From IMG/VR virus record IMGVR_UViG_3300049810_001563, positions 1 through 23,207 of that record: a stretch of 23,207 bases of DNA; one strand, given 5' to 3'. Positions 4,771 through 18,959 of the stretch are shown here, one piece after another; position 1 is the first letter of the stretch, and each line of letters starts with the position of its first letter. A program made the translations under genes and the position numbers. The notes beneath the pieces are model-generated. The model did no database searches, had not been told where the DNA came from, and saw nothing but the letters and a program-made list of their open reading frames with translations. The stretch is from a virus.

Positions 4771-5333
4771 TGGCTTTACCACTTATAATGGCAGGAGCTA
4801 GTTTAGCTCAAGGTATAATGGGCAGTCGTTCTGCCCGTAAGCAAGCTAAAAAAGCCAGACAAATTGGCGAGTACAACGCTAAGGTTGCGATGATACAATC
4901 CGAGGCTGAACAGGCATCTATTGACTTTCAATCACGGCAGTTAGTTAAACAACAACGTGAGATCAAAGCACAGCAACGTATGAGCATTGCGGGTCGTGGC
5001 GGATTAGAAGCAGGTACGGACTTGCTAAGTCTTATTGAATCTGCTAAAAATATGCAACTTGATTTATTAGAGTTAGAACGTCAACAAGATATTGCACAGA
5101 TTAGCGGGGAAACACAGGCACAACAGGCTAGAATGGGAGCAGAGGCACAAGCATCAGCATATAAAGCACAAGGTCGTCAGGCTATGATTGGTGGCGTATT
5201 GGGTGCGGCAAGTGCGTTATCTAAAATGCCAACCAAAACTCCATCACCTGCACAGCCAAATTATTTAGCAATGAATACAAGAACACCATTTGGAGGTTCT
5301 TCATTTAATTTATCAGGGGATATGTACACATAA
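4770..5333 (+). CDS. Small internal virion protein (T7 gp14-like position)
   Basis: This 187-aa protein has a hydrophobic N-terminal stretch (about 3-18, rich in Ala, Leu and Gly), then a long Gln/Ala/Arg-rich helical region (about 25-140), and a second hydrophobic Gly/Ala stretch at about 137-153. The motif AGRGGLEAGTDLLSL around 70-84 occurs in my memory of podovirus core proteins. In T7-type phages the smallest core protein (gp14) precedes two larger ones and is ejected into the outer membrane; the order here is the same. Linkage by TAATG on both sides supports co-expression. Assignment rests on position and general character rather than a diagnostic motif. Confidence 0.7.
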   Translation: MALPLIMAGASLAQGIMGSRSARKQAKKARQIGEYNAKVAMIQSEAEQASIDFQSRQLVKQQREIKAQQRMSIAGRGGLEAGTDLLSLIESAKNMQLDLLELERQQDIAQISGETQAQQARMGAEAQASAYKAQGRQAMIGGVLGAASALSKMPTKTPSPAQPNYLAMNTRTPFGGSSFNLSGDMYT

Positions 5334-6847
5334 TGGCTATTTCACTTAAAAAATATGACAGACAAGTAGGGGTGTCGGCTGAAACAGGAACTCAAGCTAT
5401 TGGTGGTGGGTTGGCTAGTGCAATGATTCAAGAAGCTGGTGCTGATGCTCAAACTTTAGCAACGGTTGCTAATGCTCTTGGCGATGCTTCTGATGCTTTT
5501 TTTGAACACAAAGCTAAAGGTGAAGTAGCTAAATATGAAGCCTACAAGCAAGAGTGGGCAAACGAGTTAGAGGTTAAAAAACAGCAAGGTTTACTTGAAG
5601 GTGAATTAAAAGCAACAGATTTATATGACAAGGTTGTAATTCCAGAGCAAATGGCGTTTGAAAAGTGGGTATCAGATCAAGGTTTTTCTGCGTTAGCTAG
5701 ACAGCAAATTGACCTAGATGTAGTAAACTTTGGTAAAAAAGTAAATGTTTCTGAGCGTTTAAATCTTCTTAAACTTCAAACAGAAGAAAGTAATTATAAT
5801 GTAACCTTAAAAGGTCAAAATAATTTAATTTCTGGATTACAACAGTTGCAAAAATTAAGAGGAGTTAATCCTAAAGATTATACAGAAGAACAAAAACTTA
5901 TTTTTGATAATGCTCAATTAAAAATAAAAGAAGGTAATGACGATCTTAACTCTTTACAAGGTAAAACAAAACCGGGAGTTGTTGAATCATTAATAGAAGA
6001 TTCTTATAAAAAATATTATTTATCAGAAGTAAGATTTTTAAATGATGAATATGATAATCAAAATTTAAGTTTTTTTGATTTAAAACAAAATTATTTAGAT
6101 TTAAAAAAAGATATAGAAAAAGATGCTGAAGAAGGAATTATTAATAAATCATCTATTCAGGATATTAATTTAGAATTAGATGCAAAAATTCAAAATGCTG
6201 CAAAAAGAGAAAGAGCTTCTATTAAAACTGATATAAAAAATATATCTGATGGGTTATTTGATGATGAAAAATTTATTGATTTTAATAATGTTAGAAATCT
6301 ATATATTAAAAATGAAGCATTAGGTAGTTATATAGATAATAATATTATGAATAGTTTAGAAGATTATTCTTTAGTAAATGATAATGCTAAAAAAGCTATT
6401 GAACTTTTGGAAAAAGGTTCTAAAGAAGATGGAATTGCTTTTACAAAAATATTAAATGAGTTAAGTGGTTTAGGTGAAGTAGGCAATGTTACTATGATGT
6501 TAGCACTTAATTATGCAGAACAAAATTTAGATAATGATGAAGAATTTATTGCTTACACAACAGGACTTCGTAAAAAAACAGATGTAACAATATCAATTAC
6601 ACCTGAGTTTAAAGATTATTTTTCAACACTTAAATATTTTATATTAGATCAAAAACAAAGTAAATATGATAGTTTTGCTAGTCAAAAATTAAAAGAATTT
6701 GTTAAATGGCAATTAACAGATGAAGATTATAGCTCTTTTAGAAAAAAACAATTTGGTTCATTTGCTAAAGAAATAGCTTTAAAACAAAATATTTTTGAAG
6801 AACCTACAACAACAACAACAAAAACATTAATTTGGGATAATCTATAA
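5333..6847 (+). CDS. Medium internal virion protein (T7 gp15-like position)
   Basis: This 504-aa protein is almost entirely helical and highly charged, with no membrane segment. The first 150 residues (start SLKKYDRQVG, then Gly/Ala-rich helices and FFEHKAKGEVAKYEAYKQEW) look conserved and have moderate base composition. From about residue 145 on, the coding sequence turns sharply AT-rich with mostly A or T at third positions. It sits between the small and the giant core proteins exactly where T7 has gp15, a tube-forming ejection protein. TAATG overlaps join it to both neighbours. No catalytic motif is visible. Confidence 0.7.
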   Translation: MAISLKKYDRQVGVSAETGTQAIGGGLASAMIQEAGADAQTLATVANALGDASDAFFEHKAKGEVAKYEAYKQEWANELEVKKQQGLLEGELKATDLYDKVVIPEQMAFEKWVSDQGFSALARQQIDLDVVNFGKKVNVSERLNLLKLQTEESNYNVTLKGQNNLISGLQQLQKLRGVNPKDYTEEQKLIFDNAQLKIKEGNDDLNSLQGKTKPGVVESLIEDSYKKYYLSEVRFLNDEYDNQNLSFFDLKQNYLDLKKDIEKDAEEGIINKSSIQDINLELDAKIQNAAKRERASIKTDIKNISDGLFDDEKFIDFNNVRNLYIKNEALGSYIDNNIMNSLEDYSLVNDNAKKAIELLEKGSKEDGIAFTKILNELSGLGEVGNVTMMLALNYAEQNLDNDEEFIAYTTGLRKKTDVTISITPEFKDYFSTLKYFILDQKQSKYDSFASQKLKEFVKWQLTDEDYSSFRKKQFGSFAKEIALKQNIFEEPTTTTTKTLIWDNL

Positions 6848-9800
6848 TGAGTTTTAATGTTATTCTTCCAAATGGAACAACTATTAATAATATTCCAGAT
6901 GGTACAACAAAAGAACAAATAAAATTAAAAGCTATATCATCTGGTCTAGCTGTTGAATCTGATTTTGATTCTTCTAAATTAACTAATAAAAAAGAACCTA
7001 TTTTAAAAAATATTTTAACAAAAGAAGATGAAGAAGATTTAGTTGCACAATCTTTTTATAGTTCTAAATTAGGAACTAATGCACCACTTGCAGTAATAGA
7101 AGGTCAGTATAAATATGAATATGGAGATAATGCAACTGTATCTTATGTTAATTCACAAAATCAAAAACCAATTACTATAATAGATAGATTTAAACCTCAA
7201 AATCAACCAACACCTAGTGAATCTTGGACTTTATTTTCTCAAAACTTTAGACAAAATAATCCTTTAGGCGTTTCTGTTAAAAGAGGAGTTCTTACTGCTT
7301 CACAAATAGGCATTAAACCATTAGAAGAAAGACTTAAAACAGTAGAAGAATCTGGTGGAGATTTTAATAAAGCATTAGAAAAAGACCCTCAAGCTGCTTT
7401 TTTAATTGCAACAGGTATTAGTAAAGGAACAATATCTTCAGACATAACTAAAACACTTAATATTAATGAAGAAAAATTACAAAAACTTGCAAAAACTCAA
7501 GAGGATATTACAGAAAAAATATTAAGTGTACCTGAAAAAAAAAGAAAAAGTATTGGTGGTATGATTAGTACAGTAGCTTCTGAAATACCATCGATGGGTA
7601 TATATGCAATACCAGTTGTCGGAGTTGCTGCAGGTTATACATATAATTTGGCAAGATATTATGATTCAGGGTTTCAAGAATATTATGCTGCAGAAATATC
7701 AAAAGGTACTGACCCACAAAGAGCTTCTGAAATAGCATCTAATCGTGCAGCAGGTTACGCATCTTTATTTAGTGTAATAGGAACTGCTGTTGATAAAGTT
7801 ACTTTAGGTGTAGGTAAAGGAATTAAACCTAAACCAGAAAATATTGGTAAACTATTTAAAAAAGATACTCAGTTAAAAATTTTGTTAGATGCTCAAAAAC
7901 CTGCTGTGGGAGAAATGTTTACAGAAATGGGTGAATCTTTTTATTTACAAATAGGAACAAGAGATCAAATAAATTGGAATGAAGTAATAGAAAATGGTGC
8001 ATACGGATATTTAGGTGGTAAATTAGCAGGTGGAACCTTTGGTCAAATAAATGTTTTACAACAAAACAGAATAAAAAATGCTTTTATAAGAGAGGGTATA
8101 GATAATAAAACTGCTGGTGAAATTGTTCAAGCTAAAAATAATAAAGAAGCAGTAGATATATTTACAAAGTTTTTTGACAAACAAGTTGAAACATTAGGAC
8201 AAGAATTAAAAGAAAGTCAAGCTGCTGAAAAAAATGCATTATTAGAAAGTTCTATACTTACTCTTGGTGATGTTAATATAATTAGAAAGCAATATTCTAA
8301 TGAAGAACTTGTAGAAAAAATAAAATCTGATCCTGTATTTGGTGAAACAAAAGAAACAATTAATTTAGCTCAAGATGTTTTTTTAAATGGTTCTGAAAAA
8401 TCATTAGATGTTTTAAATACAAAAATTGCAGAACAATTTCAATCTCAAGAAGATGTATCTATTACACCTGAACCTGAAGTTACACCTACAGAAGAAGTAG
8501 TTACAGAGCAAGTAGCAGAACCAGAAACTGTAGCTGAACCTACAGTAGAGCCTGAATCTGAACTTATGAAGGTTATTCCATCATCATTAAGCATTGATAA
8601 AAGTGGTGCAGCGAAATTTCTTGATTCAAATGGAAAAGAAATATTAGTTGATCGTGATGTAAATTTGTTGGCTTTTAATGCTGTAACGCAAGCTCAAAAA
8701 CTTTTAAATAGCGAACAAAGAAGTGCAAATTTTCTTGGAAAACAATTAATAGATAATAATTTATCTTTAGAAAACGCAGAATATAATAATTTTATAAAAG
8801 CTATAGTTGTTAAAGATGGTAAAAATGATTTTAATAAAATTGAAAACTTAGTAAAAAACTTTGATGAAAAGATAGTTTTTATTCCTAGAAAAAAAATAAA
8901 TAAAGATGGAACTTATAAATTATCTGATGCGTTAATAGTAGAAGAAAGTTTATTAGATACAGTTAGCTTGTTAAAAAATGAAAGTTATATAATTAATAAC
9001 ATTCCTAATAATGCCTCAGGAACACTTGAAGTTGTTGTAAGCGGTGAAACGGTAGGAAAAACAGATGGAAGTGTAGGTTATTATGCTAGAAATCAAAAAG
9101 AATTAGCTAAACCAACACCTTTAGCTGAACCAGCAATCGCAGAAGATGAAAAAATTGCGATGCTTGAAAAACAAAAAAAAGAAATGTTGTATAAACGAGA
9201 AAATGTAAAAACTGTTTATCAAGGAAGAGGTTTTACAAAAGATGAAATATATACTAGCACACAAACCCCTGCTGCTGGTGAAGGTCAATATTATGCTTTT
9301 ACTAAAAATGAAGCATCTAATTATGGAGATAAAATTACAAAATCTGAAATAGATATTTCTAATTTATATCAACTTGATGGCAACTCATTTGATGTTTTAT
9401 TAAAAGAATTAAAAGAAAACAACCCAAATTTATTACCAGATATAGTAAATAATGATGATAGAACTAATTTATCTTTATCCTTTCGTTATAGGGAACAATT
9501 AGATCAAAGTCCTGAAATAGCACAAAAATTAAAAGAACTAATTATTAGTAAAGGATATAATGGATTTATTATACGAGGGATTCAAAATGAACTTATAAAT
9601 CCTAAATCTTTTAGAAATTTATTTGGTTCAAACCAAATTGTTGTTTACCCAGAAGCTACACCTGTAGTTGAACTAACACCTGTAGATGCAGAAGTAAATG
9701 CAGAAAGAGTTGCGTCTGCTAGTGAAATTTTATTACCAAATGAAATAGAAGAAACGCAACCTAAACGTGGTCAACCTAAAAAAATTGGTTTATCTAAAAA

Positions 9801-11946
9801 ATTAAATGCTCAAGTAAGAGAATTAGATGATCAAGGCATTATTCCTACAGAAGAAAATTATGCTAAAGCTGCCGAACAACAATTAGATATTTCTTATGAA
9901 GATATAATAACAAAAATTAATAATGGTGAATCTATTGATAAAATAGATGTTGCTGCTTTAACAATGGCTGTAGCAAATATTTCTAACGAAATAGATTTAT
10001 TACAAGATAAAATTGATGCAGGAATTAATGTTAAAGATAATGCTACTTTAAGAGATTTAAAAGAAAATGAAGCATTATCTATAAGAGAAGCTGCAGGAAA
10101 AGCATCTGCTGAAGTTGCTAGAACTTTACAAATGTTTAGTACAGTTATCGATAGAAATAGATATAGTAGAGATAATTTATTTAAAAAAGCAGAAAAAGTT
10201 AGATCAGAAGATATTACTGATGCTGAGTTTAAAAAAACAAAAGATGATCTTAGAGCAATAGCTAAAGAAATAAAAAAACAAGAAACACAAGCTGACGAAA
10301 TTAATGAAATGTCATCTTTAGAAAAAATTCTTTATGAAGTAGAAAATGCTGTAAGAATAATAAAAACAAAACCTACAAGTAAACGTGAAAAAAATTCTGC
10401 ATCAAGATTAATAAAAAGAAGGCAAGATAAAATATTTAATTTAATATCAGAAATTAATGGAGTGCTTCCTATATCTAAAAGAATTAAAAAAATTCAAATA
10501 GAAGATTCTTCTGGTTATTTAGCAATGATTCAAAGTTTACAAACAGAAGTATCTAAAATAAGAAAATCTAAAAAGTTAGATAAACGAATTAGTGATCTAC
10601 AAGAGGAATTATCTATTATAAGACAAATAAAAAAATTAAAAATTGAAATTAAAAAACGTAAAAATGTTAAACAAAATACTATTTTATTAGAAAAATTAAA
10701 TAAAAAAATTAAAAAACCTTCTAAAAGAAAACCTGAAACTGATCCACTTATTATTGAAAAACAAGCTACTGTAAGACGTTTAAAAAGAGAGGCTAATAGA
10801 CAAATAGAATTACTAAATACTCCTGATGGATTAGTTAGGGCAAGACAATATTGGGATACATTTAGAAGTTTAAAATTAACTTTTGATGTTGGTCATTTAT
10901 TTAGACAAGGCGGTTTTGTTATTAGCAATCCAAGACTAGCTTTTAGTAAAAATGGAATGACATTTTTTAAAGAATCATTTAGAGCATTTAATGAAGTCAA
11001 TGCTGATAGAGCAATGGCTACTATAGAATCTGACCCTGATTATCAAATGTTAATTGATGGTGGTTTAAGAATTGTTCAAGAAGGCGATGATTTTGGTCAA
11101 CGTGAAGAAATACTACAAAATAATCTTATTGAAAATAAAGTGTTTGATGGATTTGCTAGATCACAAGTAACAGGGACTAATTTAATTAGATTTTATGCTG
11201 CTAAAAGTTATTTAGAAAATATGCCAGACCCTAGTCCTGAAGAAGTAAAAGCAGTATGTAAAACAATAAATATTATGACTGGATATGGAAATGTTAAAGG
11301 ATTAAGTAAAGAAAATTATAGAATGGCAAATGTTATTTTAACATCTGCTAGATTTACTGCGTCAAGAATACAAGCTCCATTTCAATTATTAAGACCATCT
11401 GTTTTTAAAAATAAAGCATTACGAAATAGATTAATTCAAGATAGTTTGGCATTTTGGGGCTTAAGAATGGGATTAATGTTTGCTTTTGTTTTGTCTGTAG
11501 ATGATGAAGATAAAGTTTACATTGGTATGGATTATAAAAAATGGACTTTTGGAAGATTAGTTATTCGTTTAGATAATGGATACAGCAGAGTATATGACCC
11601 TTGGGCAGGAATACAAACTACTATAGATTTAGGATTAAGATTATTTGGCAGAAAAAGTCAAGGAACTTTTACTGAACTAGGTAATTTTCTTGATAAAAGA
11701 AAACATCCATCAGCAGGAGCTGTAAAAGCTATAGTCCTTGGAAAAGATTGGAGGGGTAAAGAATTTAGTAATGATCCTTTAACTTCTAGGGTTGAGGGAG
11801 CTTTAAGATCAATAACTCCTATTTCAGCAGAAGGGTTATTTGATTCTGTATATGAAGATTTAGGCGTTTTAGATGCAGTAACATCAGTAGCTACAGATGT
11901 AGTTGGTATTTCTAGTTTTTTAATAAAAACAAAAGATTTACCTTAA
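6847..11946 (+). CDS. Giant internal virion (ejection) protein with ADP-ribosyltransferase-like segment
   Basis: This 1,699-aa protein holds the T7 gp16 position. The start carries the short repeat-like motif NNIPDGTTKEQI (15-26) common in large phage ejection proteins. A membrane-like segment lies at about 237-262, and an acidic Pro/Glu/Thr linker at 538-573. Residues about 789-938 look like an ADP-ribosyltransferase of the polyvalent-protein type: VYQGRG 790-795, GEGQYYAF 811-818, SNYGDK 824-829 and GYNGFII 903-909. The expected late Glu is unclear, because the aligned strand reads QIVVYPE (930-936). A Lys-rich coiled coil spans about 1180-1310, and a conserved-looking C-terminal domain with a hydrophobic stretch (about 1532-1550) ends the protein. 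No lysozyme or transglycosylase motif was seen. The gene is strikingly AT-rich. Confidence 0.75.
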   Translation: MSFNVILPNGTTINNIPDGTTKEQIKLKAISSGLAVESDFDSSKLTNKKEPILKNILTKEDEEDLVAQSFYSSKLGTNAPLAVIEGQYKYEYGDNATVSYVNSQNQKPITIIDRFKPQNQPTPSESWTLFSQNFRQNNPLGVSVKRGVLTASQIGIKPLEERLKTVEESGGDFNKALEKDPQAAFLIATGISKGTISSDITKTLNINEEKLQKLAKTQEDITEKILSVPEKKRKSIGGMISTVASEIPSMGIYAIPVVGVAAGYTYNLARYYDSGFQEYYAAEISKGTDPQRASEIASNRAAGYASLFSVIGTAVDKVTLGVGKGIKPKPENIGKLFKKDTQLKILLDAQKPAVGEMFTEMGESFYLQIGTRDQINWNEVIENGAYGYLGGKLAGGTFGQINVLQQNRIKNAFIREGIDNKTAGEIVQAKNNKEAVDIFTKFFDKQVETLGQELKESQAAEKNALLESSILTLGDVNIIRKQYSNEELVEKIKSDPVFGETKETINLAQDVFLNGSEKSLDVLNTKIAEQFQSQEDVSITPEPEVTPTEEVVTEQVAEPETVAEPTVEPESELMKVIPSSLSIDKSGAAKFLDSNGKEILVDRDVNLLAFNAVTQAQKLLNSEQRSANFLGKQLIDNNLSLENAEYNNFIKAIVVKDGKNDFNKIENLVKNFDEKIVFIPRKKINKDGTYKLSDALIVEESLLDTVSLLKNESYIINNIPNNASGTLEVVVSGETVGKTDGSVGYYARNQKELAKPTPLAEPAIAEDEKIAMLEKQKKEMLYKRENVKTVYQGRGFTKDEIYTSTQTPAAGEGQYYAFTKNEASNYGDKITKSEIDISNLYQLDGNSFDVLLKELKENNPNLLPDIVNNDDRTNLSLSFRYREQLDQSPEIAQKLKELIISKGYNGFIIRGIQNELINPKSFRNLFGSNQIVVYPEATPVVELTPVDAEVNAERVASASEILLPNEIEETQPKRGQPKKIGLSKKLNAQVRELDDQGIIPTEENYAKAAEQQLDISYEDIITKINNGESIDKIDVAALTMAVANISNEIDLLQDKIDAGINVKDNATLRDLKENEALSIREAAGKASAEVARTLQMFSTVIDRNRYSRDNLFKKAEKVRSEDITDAEFKKTKDDLRAIAKEIKKQETQADEINEMSSLEKILYEVENAVRIIKTKPTSKREKNSASRLIKRRQDKIFNLISEINGVLPISKRIKKIQIEDSSGYLAMIQSLQTEVSKIRKSKKLDKRISDLQEELSIIRQIKKLKIEIKKRKNVKQNTILLEKLNKKIKKPSKRKPETDPLIIEKQATVRRLKREANRQIELLNTPDGLVRARQYWDTFRSLKLTFDVGHLFRQGGFVISNPRLAFSKNGMTFFKESFRAFNEVNADRAMATIESDPDYQMLIDGGLRIVQEGDDFGQREEILQNNLIENKVFDGFARSQVTGTNLIRFYAAKSYLENMPDPSPEEVKAVCKTINIMTGYGNVKGLSKENYRMANVILTSARFTASRIQAPFQLLRPSVFKNKALRNRLIQDSLAFWGLRMGLMFAFVLSVDDEDKVYIGMDYKKWTFGRLVIRLDNGYSRVYDPWAGIQTTIDLGLRLFGRKSQGTFTELGNFLDKRKHPSAGAVKAIVLGKDWRGKEFSNDPLTSRVEGALRSITPISAEGLFDSVYEDLGVLDAVTSVATDVVGISSFLIKTKDLP

Positions 11947-16123: not shown

Positions 16124-16640
16124 ATATTTTTCAGATGGTGAAGAAGTTATTATCAAAGGCACGATCACTAGGTCGGGTGCTAAGGGAGATGTTTATAGCT
16201 CTGATGAAAGCACTAGCAAGTCTTTCGATGTTCGTGACCACATTGCCACCGAATCGATAGCTAGGGAAACAGTAGTACAGTCTGTGGTAGCACAGGCTCA
16301 GAGTATAGGAATGAGTGGCTGTATAGCTATGAGTAGTGGAGTCTACTTCCAAGCTGATGCGGTCGCTGATAATTGGGTTGAGGCAGTCGAGGTTGCACAG
16401 CCATTGGTGAATGAGTTGGTGGAGACGGGTACTATTACACCACCGATAGGAAGTAAGTATGAAGGTGTGGCTATACCAACCACCACATCTTTCTTGGGAG
16501 TTAAGGTTGGCAAAGAAAGACAAATGCAGAAAGCATACGAAGCACTAACGCCTGAACAGAAAGAAGCAAGAGATGTCATTAAGCAATCCGTTCAAACACC
16601 AGACGCACGAGCCGAAGAAAGAGAAGCCAGCTCAATATGA
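16116..16640 (+). CDS. Uncharacterised protein in the tail operon
   Basis: This 174-aa protein shows a beta-rich N-terminal third (EEVIIKGTITRSG), a central helical part with small residues, and a strongly charged C-terminus (EREASSI). No signal peptide or membrane segment is seen. The start overlaps the previous gene by 8 bases. The stop TGA lies in an ATGA overlap with a small membrane ORF at 16637, and its last 68 bases also overlap the PEP-CTERM-like ORF. I do not recognise the family. The position suggests a tail or late accessory function. Confidence 0.65.
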   Translation: MSEYFSDGEEVIIKGTITRSGAKGDVYSSDESTSKSFDVRDHIATESIARETVVQSVVAQAQSIGMSGCIAMSSGVYFQADAVADNWVEAVEVAQPLVNELVETGTITPPIGSKYEGVAIPTTTSFLGVKVGKERQMQKAYEALTPEQKEARDVIKQSVQTPDARAEEREASSI

Positions 16641-16878
16641 TTTATTTAAAGATTATTTTAGAGGCGATAAAGGAAAACCTGATTGTGATTGGGATTGGGA
16701 TTCTTGGTATCCTGTCAATGGTAACTATGTTTTTACCAAAGGGAAGCAAGGTAAGGAAGTTTTTAAATTTTTTAACAAAGAAGTAACAGATTGCAATGTG
16801 CCTGAACCCGCTAGTATTAGCTTTGTTCTACTAGCATCCGTCACATTATTATTTATAAAGAGAAAGTTTGCATTATGA
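16573..16878 (+). CDS. Small protein with C-terminal PEP-CTERM-like sorting signal
   Basis: This 101-aa ORF ends in a tripartite tail seen in exosortase substrates: V-P-E-P-A at 76-80, a hydrophobic helix at about 81-95, and a basic cluster KRK at 96-98 near the very C-terminus. The middle is rich in Asp and Trp (DCDWDWDSW, 37-45). There is no N-terminal signal peptide, which real PEP-CTERM substrates have. So either the start is wrong, the N-terminus comes from another frame (see the nested ORF), or the tail serves only as a membrane anchor. Third codon positions are rich in A/T like its neighbours, supporting this frame. The stop overlaps the next ATG (ATGA at 16875). The 5' start codon is the weakest part of the model. 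Confidence 0.6.
   Translation: MSLSNPFKHQTHEPKKEKPAQYDLFKDYFRGDKGKPDCDWDWDSWYPVNGNYVFTKGKQGKEVFKFFNKEVTDCNVPEPASISFVLLASVTLLFIKRKFAL
16637..16786 (+). CDS. Nested 49-aa membrane ORF inside the PEP-CTERM-like gene
   Basis: In another frame, an ORF starts with the ATGA overlap at the end of the 174-aa gene, the same coupling used by most genes that follow. It encodes 49 residues: a short amphipathic start, one hydrophobic helix (about 15-33, rich in Ile, Leu and Gly), then a basic tail (KGSKVRKFL). Small holin-like or spanin-like proteins can look like this. Against it, third positions are G-rich, unlike neighbouring genes. The heptamer TTTAAAT at 16762-16768 is in the correct phase for a -1 shift into the PEP-CTERM frame, which would make a two-helix product of about 80 aa. 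Confidence 0.35.
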   Translation: MIYLKIILEAIKENLIVIGIGILGILSMVTMFLPKGSKVRKFLNFLTKK

Positions 16879-17075
16879 AACAAGACGGACAGTTTAGCAT
16901 AAGAGAGAAAGAGTGGGTGGAGACTGCATCTAAATATATAGAAAGCAAGCACCTTCCCATCTTGGGTCAGATACTAAAGATTGTAGATACAACCTCTTTG
17001 ATGATTGGTCGTGCGTTGTTTGTAGGGATAGTTCTGGCGGGCATAGCATTGTTGAGTGGAAAATTACTTAAATGA
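16875..17075 (+). CDS. Small one-helix membrane protein
   Basis: This 66-aa protein has a charged N-terminal half and one hydrophobic segment at about 41-61 (SLMIGRALFVGIVLAGIALL), followed by a basic end SGKLLK. It begins at the ATGA that closes the PEP-CTERM-like gene and ends in an ATGA with the next gene. A single membrane helix and the location after the tail genes make a lysis-related role (holin or spanin component) possible, but no family is recognised. Confidence 0.65.
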   Translation: MKQDGQFSIREKEWVETASKYIESKHLPILGQILKIVDTTSLMIGRALFVGIVLAGIALLSGKLLK

Positions 17076-17254
17076 AGAAGAAGTACACATCTAAAGTTAA
17101 TCAGGCTGGCAACTATACCAAGCCTACAATGCGTAAGCGTATGTTCCAAGCTATCAAGGCAGGAGGCAAAGGTGGTAGACCCGGACAATGGTCAGCTCGT
17201 AAGGCACAGTTATTAGCTATGAGATATAAGAAAGCAGGAGGAGGGTATCGATGA
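17072..17254 (+). CDS. Small basic protein with GGRPGQWSARKAQ motif
   Basis: This 60-aa, very basic protein has an N-terminal Lys-rich stretch and the block KGGRPGQWSARKAQLLAMRYK (about 33-53), which I remember from small proteins of marine phages and large algal viruses. The end is GGGYR. It is joined by ATGA overlaps on both sides. The net positive charge suggests contact with nucleic acid, for example as a packaged DNA-binding protein, but this is inference. Confidence 0.7.
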   Translation: MKKKYTSKVNQAGNYTKPTMRKRMFQAIKAGGKGGRPGQWSARKAQLLAMRYKKAGGGYR

Positions 17255-17484
17255 AGCCATCACAGAAGTCATTGAAGAAGTGGACAAAGCAGAAGTGGCG
17301 TACTAAATCTGGCAAGAAGTCTAGCGAGACAGGCGAGCGTTACTTACCTGAAGCTGCGATCAAAGCCCTCACACCTGCTGAGTATTCGGCTACATCCAAA
17401 GCCAAACGTGCAGGAACAAAGAAGGGTAAGCAGTTTGTTAAGCAACCCAAGAAGATTGCCAAAAAAACAGCGAGTTACAGATGA
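17251..17484 (+). CDS. Small basic protein, DUF5872-like
   Basis: This 77-aa protein is Lys-rich and has a clearly patterned sequence: SLKKWTKQKWRTKSGK near the start, GERYLPEAAIKALTPAEY in the middle, and KKGKQFVKQPKKIAKK near the end. I recall this pattern as a domain of unknown function (DUF5872-type) shared by phages, bacteria and giant viruses; this was not verified. The gene lies in ATGA overlaps with both neighbours. A virion or DNA-associated role is possible. Confidence 0.7.
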   Translation: MKPSQKSLKKWTKQKWRTKSGKKSSETGERYLPEAAIKALTPAEYSATSKAKRAGTKKGKQFVKQPKKIAKKTASYR

Positions 17485-17882
17485 AAAAAAATACACAATG
17501 GTCACATTTAGGTTACAGCGAACGCAAAAAACTTTATGAAGGTGAAGATAAATACTTTAAAACAAACCCAAATGTAACAGGTATGGCGGCTGAAGATGGT
17601 AAAGTTATAATGAATCCATACTCTACATTGACCGCACCAGAAAGAAATGCTGTTAAAAAAAATGAAGCATTTAGATTAAAACTGCGTGACTCAAATGTAA
17701 ACTTAGATTTTAATGTTACTCCAGAGCAAAAAGAATTTTTTGGAGGAACTGAATATTCCTCTAATGAAAATGCTATGCGTGAAACTATATTAGCTCGTAT
17801 TTATTCTGGCGACCCTTCGGCAAAAGCAACACAAGAACAAAAAAATATTTTACAACAAATTTTAAAAGGATTTAAAAAATGA
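17481..17882 (+). CDS. Uncharacterised AT-rich protein between basic genes
   Basis: This 133-aa soluble protein contains the segment GKVIMNPYSTLTAPERNAVKKN (about 40-61), which I recall from hypothetical proteins of marine phages. The rest is helical and charged, ending KGFKK. Its codons are distinctly richer in A and T than the basic genes on either side, suggesting later insertion or different selection. ATGA overlaps with both neighbours are intact, so if it was inserted it was fitted neatly into the operon. Function unknown. Confidence 0.65.
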   Translation: MKKNTQWSHLGYSERKKLYEGEDKYFKTNPNVTGMAAEDGKVIMNPYSTLTAPERNAVKKNEAFRLKLRDSNVNLDFNVTPEQKEFFGGTEYSSNENAMRETILARIYSGDPSAKATQEQKNILQQILKGFKK

Positions 17883-18160
17883 GCAAGTCATTACTAAAAC
17901 GTATAGGTGTTAGCGGTTACAACAAACCAAAGCGTACACCCGGTCATCCCAAGAAGTCGCACGTTGTTGTGGCTAAATCAGGTAGCAAGACAAAGACAAT
18001 TCGATTTGGAGAACAGGGAGCTTCTACTGCGGGCAAACCTAAAGCGGGTGAGTCAAAGCGTATGAAGATGAAACGTAAATCATTCAAGGCTCGGCATCGT
18101 AAGAACATTGCAAAGGGTGTAATGTCTGCGGCATACTGGGCGAATAAAGTTAAATGGTAA
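17879..18160 (+). CDS. Small basic protein with RIGVSGYNKPKRTP motif
   Basis: This 93-aa, strongly basic protein has a recognisable order of blocks: RIGVSGYNKPKRTPGHPKKS at 7-26, a short beta pair (HVVVAKSGSKTKTIRFG), a linker with GESKRMKMKRKSFKARH and a C-terminal MSAAYWANKVKW. I recall this pattern from phages, bacteria and large DNA viruses, with no assigned function. High Lys/Arg content suggests nucleic acid contact. The start overlaps the previous stop (ATGA). Confidence 0.7.
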   Translation: MSKSLLKRIGVSGYNKPKRTPGHPKKSHVVVAKSGSKTKTIRFGEQGASTAGKPKAGESKRMKMKRKSFKARHRKNIAKGVMSAAYWANKVKW

Positions 18161-18170
18161 GGAGATAGTT

Positions 18171-18281
18171 ATGCCAAAGGTAGGGAAGAAAGTATTTAAG
18201 TATACCAAGAAGGGTATGCAAGCAGCCAAGAAAGAAGCCAAGAAAACTGGCAAGAAAATGTCTATGAAAAAAGGCTACTAA
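18171..18281 (+). CDS. Very small Lys-rich protein (36 aa)
   Basis: Starting at ATG 18171 after a strong AAGGAG ribosome site (18159-18164), it encodes 36 residues of which over a third are Lys. The form PKVGKKVFKYTKKG followed by KKTGKKMSMKKGY resembles tiny basic proteins I remember next to the other basic proteins in marine phages. The stop TAA overlaps the next ATG (TAATG at 18279-18283). It may be a packaged or DNA-binding peptide. Confidence 0.65.
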   Translation: MPKVGKKVFKYTKKGMQAAKKEAKKTGKKMSMKKGY

Positions 18282-18706
18282 TGTCTGTTGAATTAATCGC
18301 AATGTTAGGTGGCTCACTATCTGGTTTCGTTATGAAACTAATCGCAGCCCAAGCTCAATCCCAGTCAGCTCAACTAGAGTCTATGCTCAAGAAGCAAGGG
18401 GTAGCTGATGATTCTGCTGATCGTGCGGCTAGTCGTGATGGGGTGGCAGGTGCAGTTGTCCGTAGAACGATTGCGTTGTGTACTTTGTTTGCTGTGATTT
18501 TTGCACCATTCGTTCTTGCGTTTTTCAACGAGCCAGTTACTATCGAAGCTAACGCATCAAGCGGTCTATTTGGATTCCTGTTTGGGAACTTATTCGATAA
18601 AGGAAATGGCTGGATTGAATTGCAAGGATACGTTTTATTACCAGAGGTTCGGCAAACGATGCTTGCTCTGGTCGGGTTTTACTTCGGTAGTTCTCAGGTT
18701 AAGTAG
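18281..18706 (+). CDS. Holin-like membrane protein
   Basis: This 141-aa protein has an N-terminal amphipathic or weakly hydrophobic stretch (3-22), a charged helical region with Gln and Ser (25-60), a strong membrane helix at about 63-82 and a second hydrophobic segment at about 118-136 ending in FYFGSSQVK. The end pattern FYFGSS followed by Lys occurs in small phage membrane proteins near lysis genes. It is the last gene before a terminator. A holin role is plausible from topology and position, but no endolysin is visible beside it. Confidence 0.5.
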   Translation: MSVELIAMLGGSLSGFVMKLIAAQAQSQSAQLESMLKKQGVADDSADRAASRDGVAGAVVRRTIALCTLFAVIFAPFVLAFFNEPVTIEANASSGLFGFLFGNLFDKGNGWIELQGYVLLPEVRQTMLALVGFYFGSSQVK

Positions 18707-18806: not shown

Positions 18807-18959
18807 ATGTCTATGTATAAAATTGTCGACTGGAAGGGCAACGAAGCGGTAGTAGAATCAGGTAAGTATAATAGAAGTGAAGTATTACAGTTGGCGTGGG
18901 AAAAGAATCCTAGCATAGAAAAGAATGGCACATTCCAAATCTTAGTATTAAAGTCTTGA
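18807..18959 (+). CDS. Small hypothetical protein (50 aa)
   Basis: ATG 18807 follows a GGAGG ribosome site (18798-18802) and opens a 50-codon frame ending TGA 18957-18959. The protein starts MSMYKIVDWKGNE and ends QILVLKS. It is soluble and mixed alpha/beta. It lies between a strong terminator and the riboswitch promoter, and no separate promoter is obvious, so it may depend on readthrough. Its stop codon overlaps the TTGACA of the next promoter. Not recognised. Confidence 0.6.
   Translation: MSMYKIVDWKGNEAVVESGKYNRSEVLQLAWEKNPSIEKNGTFQILVLKS

Follow-up and report, generated by a model that had tools for sequence, protein, structure and literature searches.

Small basic proteins of marine phages as candidate halves of a DUF5872-like nucleic-acid-binding module

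A chain of short genes in the structural module

The window, a 23,207-nucleotide stretch (positions 1–23,207 of IMG/VR record IMGVR_UViG_3300049810_001563), comes from a marine virus of bacteria and encodes, on its plus strand, a series of very small proteins with a strong positive charge. These are F1 (17072..17254; 60 aa, 28% Lys+Arg, net charge +17, phrog_17747), F2 (17251..17484; 77 aa, 31% Lys+Arg, net +20, phrog_14910), F3 (17879..18160; 93 aa, 29% Lys+Arg, net +25, phrog_7595), and the peptide F4 (18171..18281; 36 aa, 39% Lys+Arg, net +13, phrog_33179). Because each matches a PHROG family (E = 1.5e-31, 1.7e-37, 1.9e-40, and 7.1e-11, respectively), with matches extending over nearly the full length, the four basic families exceed chance; the PHROG entries themselves give no function, pairing, fusions, or cellular relatives. 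On the plus strand, the set is flanked by a 66-aa predicted membrane protein whose C-terminal half reads as hydrophobic (16875..17075, starting in ATGA), with relatives in 15 of the 58 loci retrieved with the 141-aa protein, and by that 141-aa protein itself (18281..18706; phrog_38283), also a putative membrane protein, which served as the family-independent anchor for this phage group. Upstream and outside the basic set lies a 101-aa protein (16573..16878, plus strand) with a PEP-CTERM-like C-terminus (VPEP, a hydrophobic stretch, and a basic end). Its scores are below cut-off for both Pfam PEP-CTERM (E = 0.034, 14.7 bits, cut-off 20.7) and TIGR02595 (13.9 bits, cut-off 16), and its motif is present in viral homologues too.

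The first-pass annotation of this DNA had described a cassette of mostly basic proteins chained by ATGA overlaps, an observation that was partly confirmed. The starts at 16875, 17072, 17251, 17481, and 17879 do fall in ATGA, with five gaps of exactly −4, but F4, counted there as a member, starts 10 nt past the F3 stop with its own AGGAG ribosome site in front, and the gene after it begins in TAATG. Between 262 and 18706, the 18 successive junctions comprise 5 ATGA, 6 TAATG, 3 overlaps of greater length, and 4 gaps, so that overlapping starts (14/18) are the norm throughout the structural module and therefore do not mark a special cassette. The claim that four members plus the 36-aa gene are strongly basic holds for F1, F2, F3, and F4, but not for the 66-aa protein (14% Lys+Arg, net +3). 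The idea that the glycine-rich F1 end doubles as the F2 ribosome site was rejected, GGAGG-like sites being as frequent in adjacent as in separated F1-F2 pairs (42/84 versus 37/77, P = 0.87).

The 133-aa gene in the F2/F3 junction (17481..17882, plus strand), bounded by ATGA at either end, is AT-rich as claimed (GC 0.31, GC3 0.16, against GC3 of 0.39–0.51 in F1–F4). Judged by sequence comparison, it is a precise insertion at that ATGA junction: F2 joins F3 directly in five related loci (L243, L244, and L254–L256), and the sole relative of the 133-aa gene in the viral_contigs scan lies in locus L167 (47%).

F1 and F2 form a near-obligate pair, with F3 and F4 as optional partners

Similar basic proteins were said to occur in marine phages, and the families are indeed common there, in phages of several types and with different hosts; isolates that have them include HMO-2011, CRP-13, HTVC034P, and MEP402. 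Among 50,697 phage records (E 1e-5, some genomes entered twice), F1, F2, and F3 were found in 17, 17, and 44, respectively, and IMG/VR holds at least 586–595 stretches for each. F1 lies upstream of F2 on the same strand in all 173 viral clusters having both, and the same order is found in 211/211 viral loci. Where 2 kb of flank was available, F2 was present downstream in 57/57 clusters fetched by F1, and F1 upstream in 40/40 fetched by F2. Among 21 clusters retrieved through the 141-aa protein instead, both occurred in 13, F1 alone in 0, F2 alone in 2, and neither in 6 (Fisher P = 5e-4). F2 without F1 was seen in 3 of 27 well-flanked loci (L286, L293, and L297) and in 5 of 48 F3-fetched loci of at least 8 kb. 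More than 300 bp separate the two domains in 50/173 clusters, and the two are fused into one chain in 12/290 viral loci, F2 and F3 in 3/290. The co-occurrence proposed for the basic set is thus non-random for F1 and F2, but was not significant for F1 and F3 (P = 0.20) among the clusters retrieved without recourse to these families.

Basic too, F3 and F4 are optional companions of F1-F2. F3 precedes F2 about as often as it follows it (68 versus 70), and it forms the C-terminal end of a 1,781-aa protein in locus L229 and of a 1,022-aa protein in L181. PHROGs near the latter include a head maturation protease, whereas those near the former name nothing structural; a virion role for the 1,781-aa protein may be proposed from its size and position only. 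Its BLASTP similarity to the window's own 1,699-aa protein was not significant, and homology between the two was rejected. F4 had no tblastn match in the phage records even at E 0.05, and since its short, Lys-rich profile, despite the PHROG match, may yield false hits, F4 counts are weak.

Cellular relatives join F1 and F2 in one protein

Fused F1-F2 copies occur in 8/398 Pseudomonadota genomes, the chosen centre genome counted, and a viral fusion (L191) retrieves them with E-values of 1.6e-32 to 4.2e-37. By reading, a Rho_N-like stretch follows F1-F2 in eight of eight bacterial proteins, although in the four scanned the Rho_N match stayed below cut-off (best 24.0 versus 24.9 bits). This stretch, which recalls Rho_N/SAP-like DNA- or RNA-binding domains, is absent from the window's phage genes and from the SAR11 protein scanned. 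The Pfam profile DUF5872 (PF19197; cut-off 27.5 bits) covers the F1 half and the F2 half together. Two of the four cellular fusions scanned just exceed this cut-off (L359, 27.7 bits; L361, 27.6 bits), one lies below it (L360), and one has no match (L363); of six viral fusions, five score below it (12.5–24.6 bits, E 3.9e-5 to 0.23) and the sixth has no match. The window differs in that its halves are two separate overlapping genes rather than one chain, and neither F1 nor F2 has any Pfam match at E 1. Their connection to DUF5872 runs through intermediates, from L191 to the cellular fusions, two of which pass the cut-off. Searching with the DUF5872 profile matched 2/200 Pseudomonadota genomes (one over cut-off) and 0 of 14 control genomes. 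Among the 25 plasmid relatives listed, RefSeq names one DUF5872 protein and one Rho-termination-factor-N protein, 11 fall under aspartate-semialdehyde dehydrogenase genes, 9 are hypothetical proteins, and 3 coincide with no gene.

The reverse fusion, F2-F1, was found in 26/57 loci of the genome_contigs set, all titled Pelagibacteraceae, and as a single open frame in 12/118 Pelagibacteraceae genomes, centre counted. Thus permuted relative to DUF5872, the scanned SAR11 protein matches neither that profile nor Rho_N. Its gene lies downstream of a short-chain dehydrogenase in 6/6 fetched regions and upstream of a TspO-like gene in 4/6; in the one region scanned (L378), genes for CFA-synthase, DUF1365, and DUF3833 lie close by. 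In a careful tree, the SAR11 rows form one clade (100/99) that groups with pelagiphage Lederberg and viral contig L257 (99/88, 12 rows); a constraint uniting all 21 cellular rows was not rejected (AU P = 0.35). An earlier quick tree had scored worse than its own constrained tree. On this phylogeny, a phage origin of the SAR11 protein is probable.

Late position and the preferred reading

In the phages examined, these genes lie in late structural, packaging, or lysis regions. Among 121 plus-strand neighbour ORFs, the terminase large subunit is the named family seen most often (7); F1-F2 directly precede it in phage MEP402, where the order is F1-F2-TerL-portal-one small gene-scaffold-capsid. Structure models reached pLDDT 84.8 and 90.9; the F1-F2 model had a pTM of 0.55, and its interface therefore gains no support from the model. 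A PDB sequence search returned no relatives, Foldseek on the F1-F2 and F3 models returned none at E 0.001 (best Z 2.7 and 2.4), and neither the PDB nor the fold searches gave a match to HU, H-NS, histones, or other known DNA-binding proteins.

Taken together, the families themselves, the fixed F1-to-F2 order, the near-obligate co-occurrence, the fusions in both orders, and the late-region position are observed. The pairing in constant order and the fusions suggest that F1 and F2 together correspond to a single protein that handles DNA or RNA, each supplying one half. We tentatively favour, as an explanation with somewhat less than an even chance, that F1 and F2 are the halves of one small, strongly basic, predicted nucleic-acid-binding module of the DUF5872 kind, carried as two overlapping late genes. 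F1 would be the N-terminal and F2 the C-terminal half of a module that other phages and bacteria join in one chain and SAR11 joins in the opposite order; the two proteins may work jointly in a complex that binds DNA or RNA, and may coat or condense phage DNA around packaging or ejection. The likeliest putative role is DNA condensation or packaging: nucleic-acid binding and virion packaging are plausible because of the charge, the late position, the Rho_N-like ends of the cellular relatives, and the fusions of F3 to large late proteins. The first-pass interpretation, which offered a packaged nucleic-acid-binding set or a mobile cassette, was partly supported: the families are common in marine phages and F1 and F2 co-occur non-randomly, a packaged nucleic-acid-binding set is plausible, and movement as a unit gained no support.

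Alternative explanations

An unlikely though credible competitor is that F1 and F2 are directed at the host: late in infection they would bind the nucleoid, RNA polymerase, or RNA of the cell, and their task would be to silence or protect nucleic acid, not to package the phage genome. Related fusions are encoded by bacteria themselves, the four scanned ending in Rho_N-like stretches, and together with the gene context of the SAR11 copy (dehydrogenase, TspO-like, CFA-synthase, DUF1365, and DUF3833 genes) they indicate that the module can be of use to cells with no virion involved. However, early takeover genes are unexpected in late structural, packaging, and lysis regions, and no host partner is known.

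The terminase neighbourhood and the MEP402 order could also point to a packaging accessory, with small-terminase-like DNA recognition or loading, but this is improbable: CRP-13 has F1 and F2 plus a separate annotated small terminase, HTVC034P has no annotated packaging gene within the 10 kb inspected around F1-F2, and no terminase was noticed, by reading, beside the cellular copies.

The proposal that the set moves between viruses as a unit fared worse and is very improbable. It accords with the spread of the families over phage types and hosts and with the contiguous F1-F2-F3-F4-141-aa gene order in L243 and L244. In Mantel tests of sequence distances (up to 90 clusters per test), F3 and F4 did correlate (r = 0.34, P = 0.006, 29 clusters), but F1-F2 barely did (r = 0.13, P = 0.066), and F2-F3 (r = −0.06, no significant correlation) and F1-F3 (r = −0.07) did not. 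Against the 141-aa protein, distances correlated for F3 (r = 0.73, 16 clusters) and F2 (r = 0.36, 27 clusters), with F1 at r = 0.26 (P = 0.088, 23 clusters). The placement of F3 on either side of F2, its non-significant association with F1, and the frequent wide spacing between F1 and F2 further oppose joint transfer. Membrane-active or lysis-related basic peptides that form part of the adjacent lysis region are hardly credible. The neighbouring genes at 16875 and 18281 do read as hydrophobic, and phages have lysozyme, endolysin, or amidase genes nearby, but inspection of F1–F3 revealed neither a signal nor a membrane segment, and the fused bacterial relatives bear Rho_N-like ends.

Relation to viral nucleoproteins and implications

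Literature searches on phage proteomes and on basic or DNA-condensing phage proteins listed no proteome of a family-carrying phage; P-SS2, which has a proteome according to the portion of its report available (PMC2784084), is not among the 50 phage records with F3, and the accessible text of an HMO-2011-type phage paper (PMC9038755) was not found to name these genes. The suggested link to large DNA viruses of algae holds only indirectly, in that Chrysochromulina parva virus lists a "DUF5872 protein" in the available part of its report (PMC12085832) and two cellular F1-F2 fusions just reach that profile. The dinoflagellate/viral nucleoprotein DVNP, a basic viral protein (pI 10.7) detected by mass spectrometry in a haptophyte virus virion and also adopted by dinoflagellates, as stated in the portion available (PMC11953307), resembles the present system in protein type and in virus–cell sharing, by analogy only. 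It differs in that the hosts here are bacteria. A Pfam scan, in a library whose DVNP model is unconfirmed, gave no match for F1–F3 and a chance-level one for F4, with no nucleoprotein match seen for any of the four.

A broader and rather doubtful possibility is that F1 and F2, with F3 and F4, constitute a widespread bacteriophage nucleoprotein system, the counterpart of algal-virus DVNP, from which SAR11 would have taken the pair from pelagiphages into its chromosomes as one reversed-order protein, often beside an apparent light/oxidative-stress gene cluster. F1–F4 are common, nameless proteins of marine phages, and the halves are also fused in culturable bacteria (Azospirillum and Phaeobacter, where P. 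inhibens DSM 17395 has the fused gene PGA1_RS18440), so that small viral ORFs otherwise hard to test become tractable by knocking out a bacterial gene and purifying a single-chain form. If virion DNA binding proves true, tailed phages would possess a nucleoprotein on a par with the one in giant algal viruses.

Small basic genes at the end of a T7-like structural module

The window, 23,207 bases long, is an IMG/VR virus record carrying a T7-like phage structural module, recognized through PHROG matches to a major head protein (E 1.5e-62), a tail protein (E 1.1e-43, with a tail tubular family at E 5.8e-18), and an internal virion protein (E 4.5e-8). A chain of small genes is placed at the end of this module, after which minus-strand genes begin at about 19.3 kb. 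The chain consists of a 66-aa gene (16875-17075, +; 14% Lys+Arg), F1 (60 aa, 17072-17254, +; 28%), F2 (77 aa, 17251-17484, +; 31%), a 133-aa gene (17481-17882, +; 17%), F3 (93 aa, 17879-18160, +; 29%), and F4 (36 aa, 18171-18281, +; 39%), followed by a gene for a 141-aa protein (18281-18706, +). All five ATGA overlaps claimed for the chain in the first-pass annotation are exact. Overlapping junctions are ordinary here: counted between 262 and 18706, 14 of 18 junctions overlap (ATGA 5, TAATG 6, longer overlaps 3), and 4 are gaps.

Several other features of the window were recorded. The structural genes for 504-aa and 1699-aa proteins (5333-11946, +) have a GC content of about 0.22-0.31, against 0.36-0.47 in most of the window. 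The 50-aa gene at 18807-18959 (+) has its own ribosome site, and its relatives occur in 23 of the 58 loci retrieved with the 141-aa protein. A 101-aa phage protein (16573-16878, +) has a terminal PEP-CTERM-like sorting signal that scores below threshold in both Pfam and NCBIfam and might point to a host with an exosortase; the PEP, hydrophobic, and basic end recurs in viral homologues L240, L241, L247, L250, L282, and L285, and is missing from the frames that matched in L245 and L249. Our literature search found no paper devoted to phage PEP-CTERM proteins. Overlapping this gene in another frame is a 49-aa hydrophobic ORF (16637-16786, +), possibly a nested membrane protein.

Families and their distribution

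F1, F2, F3, and F4 correspond to phrog_17747, phrog_14910, phrog_7595, and phrog_33179, all of unknown function, and gave no meaningful match in Pfam. Among 50,697 phage records, in which some genomes are entered twice, searches at E 1e-5 found 17 with F1, 17 with F2, and 44 with F3. The phages with F1 and F2 infect Pelagibacter, Rhodobacteraceae, Puniceispirillum, and Methylophilales, with F1 additionally in one Synechococcus phage, while F3 belongs mainly to roseophages and cyanophages. IMG/VR holds at least 586-595 relatives of each of F1, F2, and F3, of which 80 loci per family were kept for analysis. All four families are present on a 33-kb Candidatus Poseidoniales single-cell contig of archaeal assignment (L299), which is either a virus of that archaeal cell or a co-sorted phage, and a split phage-like F3-F1-F2 arrangement, possibly a provirus, lies on a 399-kb genome contig of Pelagibacteraceae AG-892-J03 (L308).

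F1 and F2 keep a fixed order and near-obligate pairing

Iterative profiles built from the window proteins were run on all frames of 298 sequences, 290 of them viral-contig loci. All 211 loci having both families placed F2 downstream of F1 on one strand (median gap, 24 bp), and the order was retained in 173 of 173 clusters after loci with identical shared DNA were merged (290 loci to 235 clusters). The domains were separated by at most 60 bp in 97 clusters, by 60-300 bp in 26, by 300-1000 bp in 35, and by over 1 kb in 15. With start codons picked by rule, 81 of 84 adjacent pairs overlapped, chiefly through TAATG (51) or ATGA (22). Given 2 kb of flank, F2 accompanied F1 in all 57 F1-fetched clusters and F1 accompanied F2 in all 40 F2-fetched clusters.

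The fairest test of co-occurrence is provided by loci fetched by the 141-aa protein, where 21 clusters had enough flank: 13 held both F1 and F2, none F1 alone, 2 F2 alone, and 6 neither (Fisher P = 5e-4). The same test gave P = 0.046 for F2-F3, 0.20 for F1-F3, and 0.18 for F3-F4. Among 48 F3-fetched loci of at least 8 kb, both F1 and F2 were found in 22, neither in 21, and F2 alone in 5; F3 followed F2 in 70 loci and preceded it in 68.

Other genes enter between these families. Across 87 loci examined, 36 ORFs of at least 70 aa were inserted between F1 and F2, including an oxygenase identified by reading in L018. In phage HMO-2011, F1 (in gp63) and F2 (in gp59) are separated by gp61, which is annotated as methanesulfonate monooxygenase. 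A further small basic family (GTGKKPKGSGRRLYTDENPKDTVSIKFAT...) occupies this position in seven loci (L120:8325-8618, L252:12818-13120, and five others), and the L120 member had no Pfam match. In relatives L243, L244, L254, L255, and L256, F2 runs straight into F3, its stop sharing an ATGA with the F3 start. Since window segments 17078-17484 and 17879-18187 align with adjoining stretches of L256 (2941-3347 and 3344-3651), the 133-aa gene lies precisely at the F2/F3 junction, flanked by ATGA at each end; the viral scan gave it a single relative (L167, 47%), which is placed differently, among head genes by reading.

Fusions in viral and cellular loci

Of the 290 viral loci, 12 encode F1-F2 as a single chain and 3 encode F2-F3 in this way. 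F3 also forms the end of two large proteins, of 1781 aa in L229 and 1022 aa in L181, whose size and position suggest late virion-type proteins and which had no match giving function. Five of six viral F1-F2 fusions scanned matched DUF5872 below cut-off (E 3.9e-5, 4.2e-4, 0.001, 0.013, and 0.23); no match was found in viral fusion L092, genome-contig fusion L340, or F2-F3 fusion L090.

Relatives were found at 57 genome-contig loci, 26 of which, all titled Pelagibacteraceae, carry the reverse order F2-F1 in one frame, on contigs reaching 522 kb and among housekeeping genes recognized from sequence. A match was present in 13 of 118 Pelagibacteraceae genomes (centre included), forming a single open frame in 12 and broken in two in the other. 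By reading, the gene just upstream of the fusion, on its strand, is short-chain-dehydrogenase-like in six of six fetched SAR11 regions, and the gene just downstream is TspO-like in four of six; L350 is without a same-strand dehydrogenase. Pfam confirmed TspO, CFA synthase, DUF1365, DUF3833, dehydrogenases, and an FAD amine oxidase in the one SAR11 region scanned (L378). Genes of these kinds may often accompany photolyase or light-stress clusters.

The F1-F2 fusion was found in 8 of 398 Pseudomonadota genomes (centre included), which may be a lower bound because scoring covered the best nine candidates per genome. In all four of these fusions scanned, a Rho_N match follows F1-F2, always below cut-off (best, 24.0 versus 24.9 bits), while two passed the DUF5872 cut-off (27.7 and 27.6 versus 27.5 bits), one fell below it, and one had no DUF5872 match. 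The DUF5872 profile matched 2 of 200 Pseudomonadota genomes, a single one of them above cut-off, and had no match in the 14 control genomes. Plasmid relatives numbered 54 among 72,556 records (Phaeobacter 47, Azospirillum 7), and the 25 listed were annotated as aspartate-semialdehyde dehydrogenase (11), hypothetical (9), nothing (3), DUF5872 (1), or Rho termination factor N-terminal (1). A DUF3140 gene (L369:8211-8597, -; E 6.8e-32) lies next to the end of the fusion in one bacterial genome.

A careful tree of joined F1+F2 sequences (72 rows thinned from 279; 133 columns) left many forks unresolved and required at least four architecture changes. The SAR11 fusions form one clade (100/99) beside pelagiphage Lederberg and viral contig L257 (99/88), and constraining all 21 cellular rows together was not rejected (AU P = 0.35). 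These tree results suggest that fusion likely arose separately in both orders and that the F1-F2 module was probably transferred from phage to SAR11.

A putative nucleic-acid module

The natural F1-F2 fusion of L191 was modelled as helices (mean pLDDT 84.8) whose relative placement is uncertain given a pTM of 0.55, and F3 as a beta hairpin with helices (pLDDT 90.9, pTM 0.79); structure searches with both models returned no resemblance to solved structures. Neighboring ORFs were sampled at random (148 from 665 of 90-600 aa), and among the 121 plus-strand ORFs scanned, with 27 on the minus strand left out, the commonest named family was the terminase large subunit (7/121), with endolysin and tail families next (3 each).

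Because their order never varies, they almost always occur as a pair, and they are fused in either order, F1 and F2 very probably work as one module. Their charge and the Rho_N-like ends of relatives make nucleic acid a somewhat favored target, while a role specifically in packaging or condensation is a more tentative suggestion. DVNP, a basic viral protein found in the virion (PMC11953307), sets a precedent. Their place in late regions, close to terminase, suggests that F1 and F2 may handle DNA around packaging.
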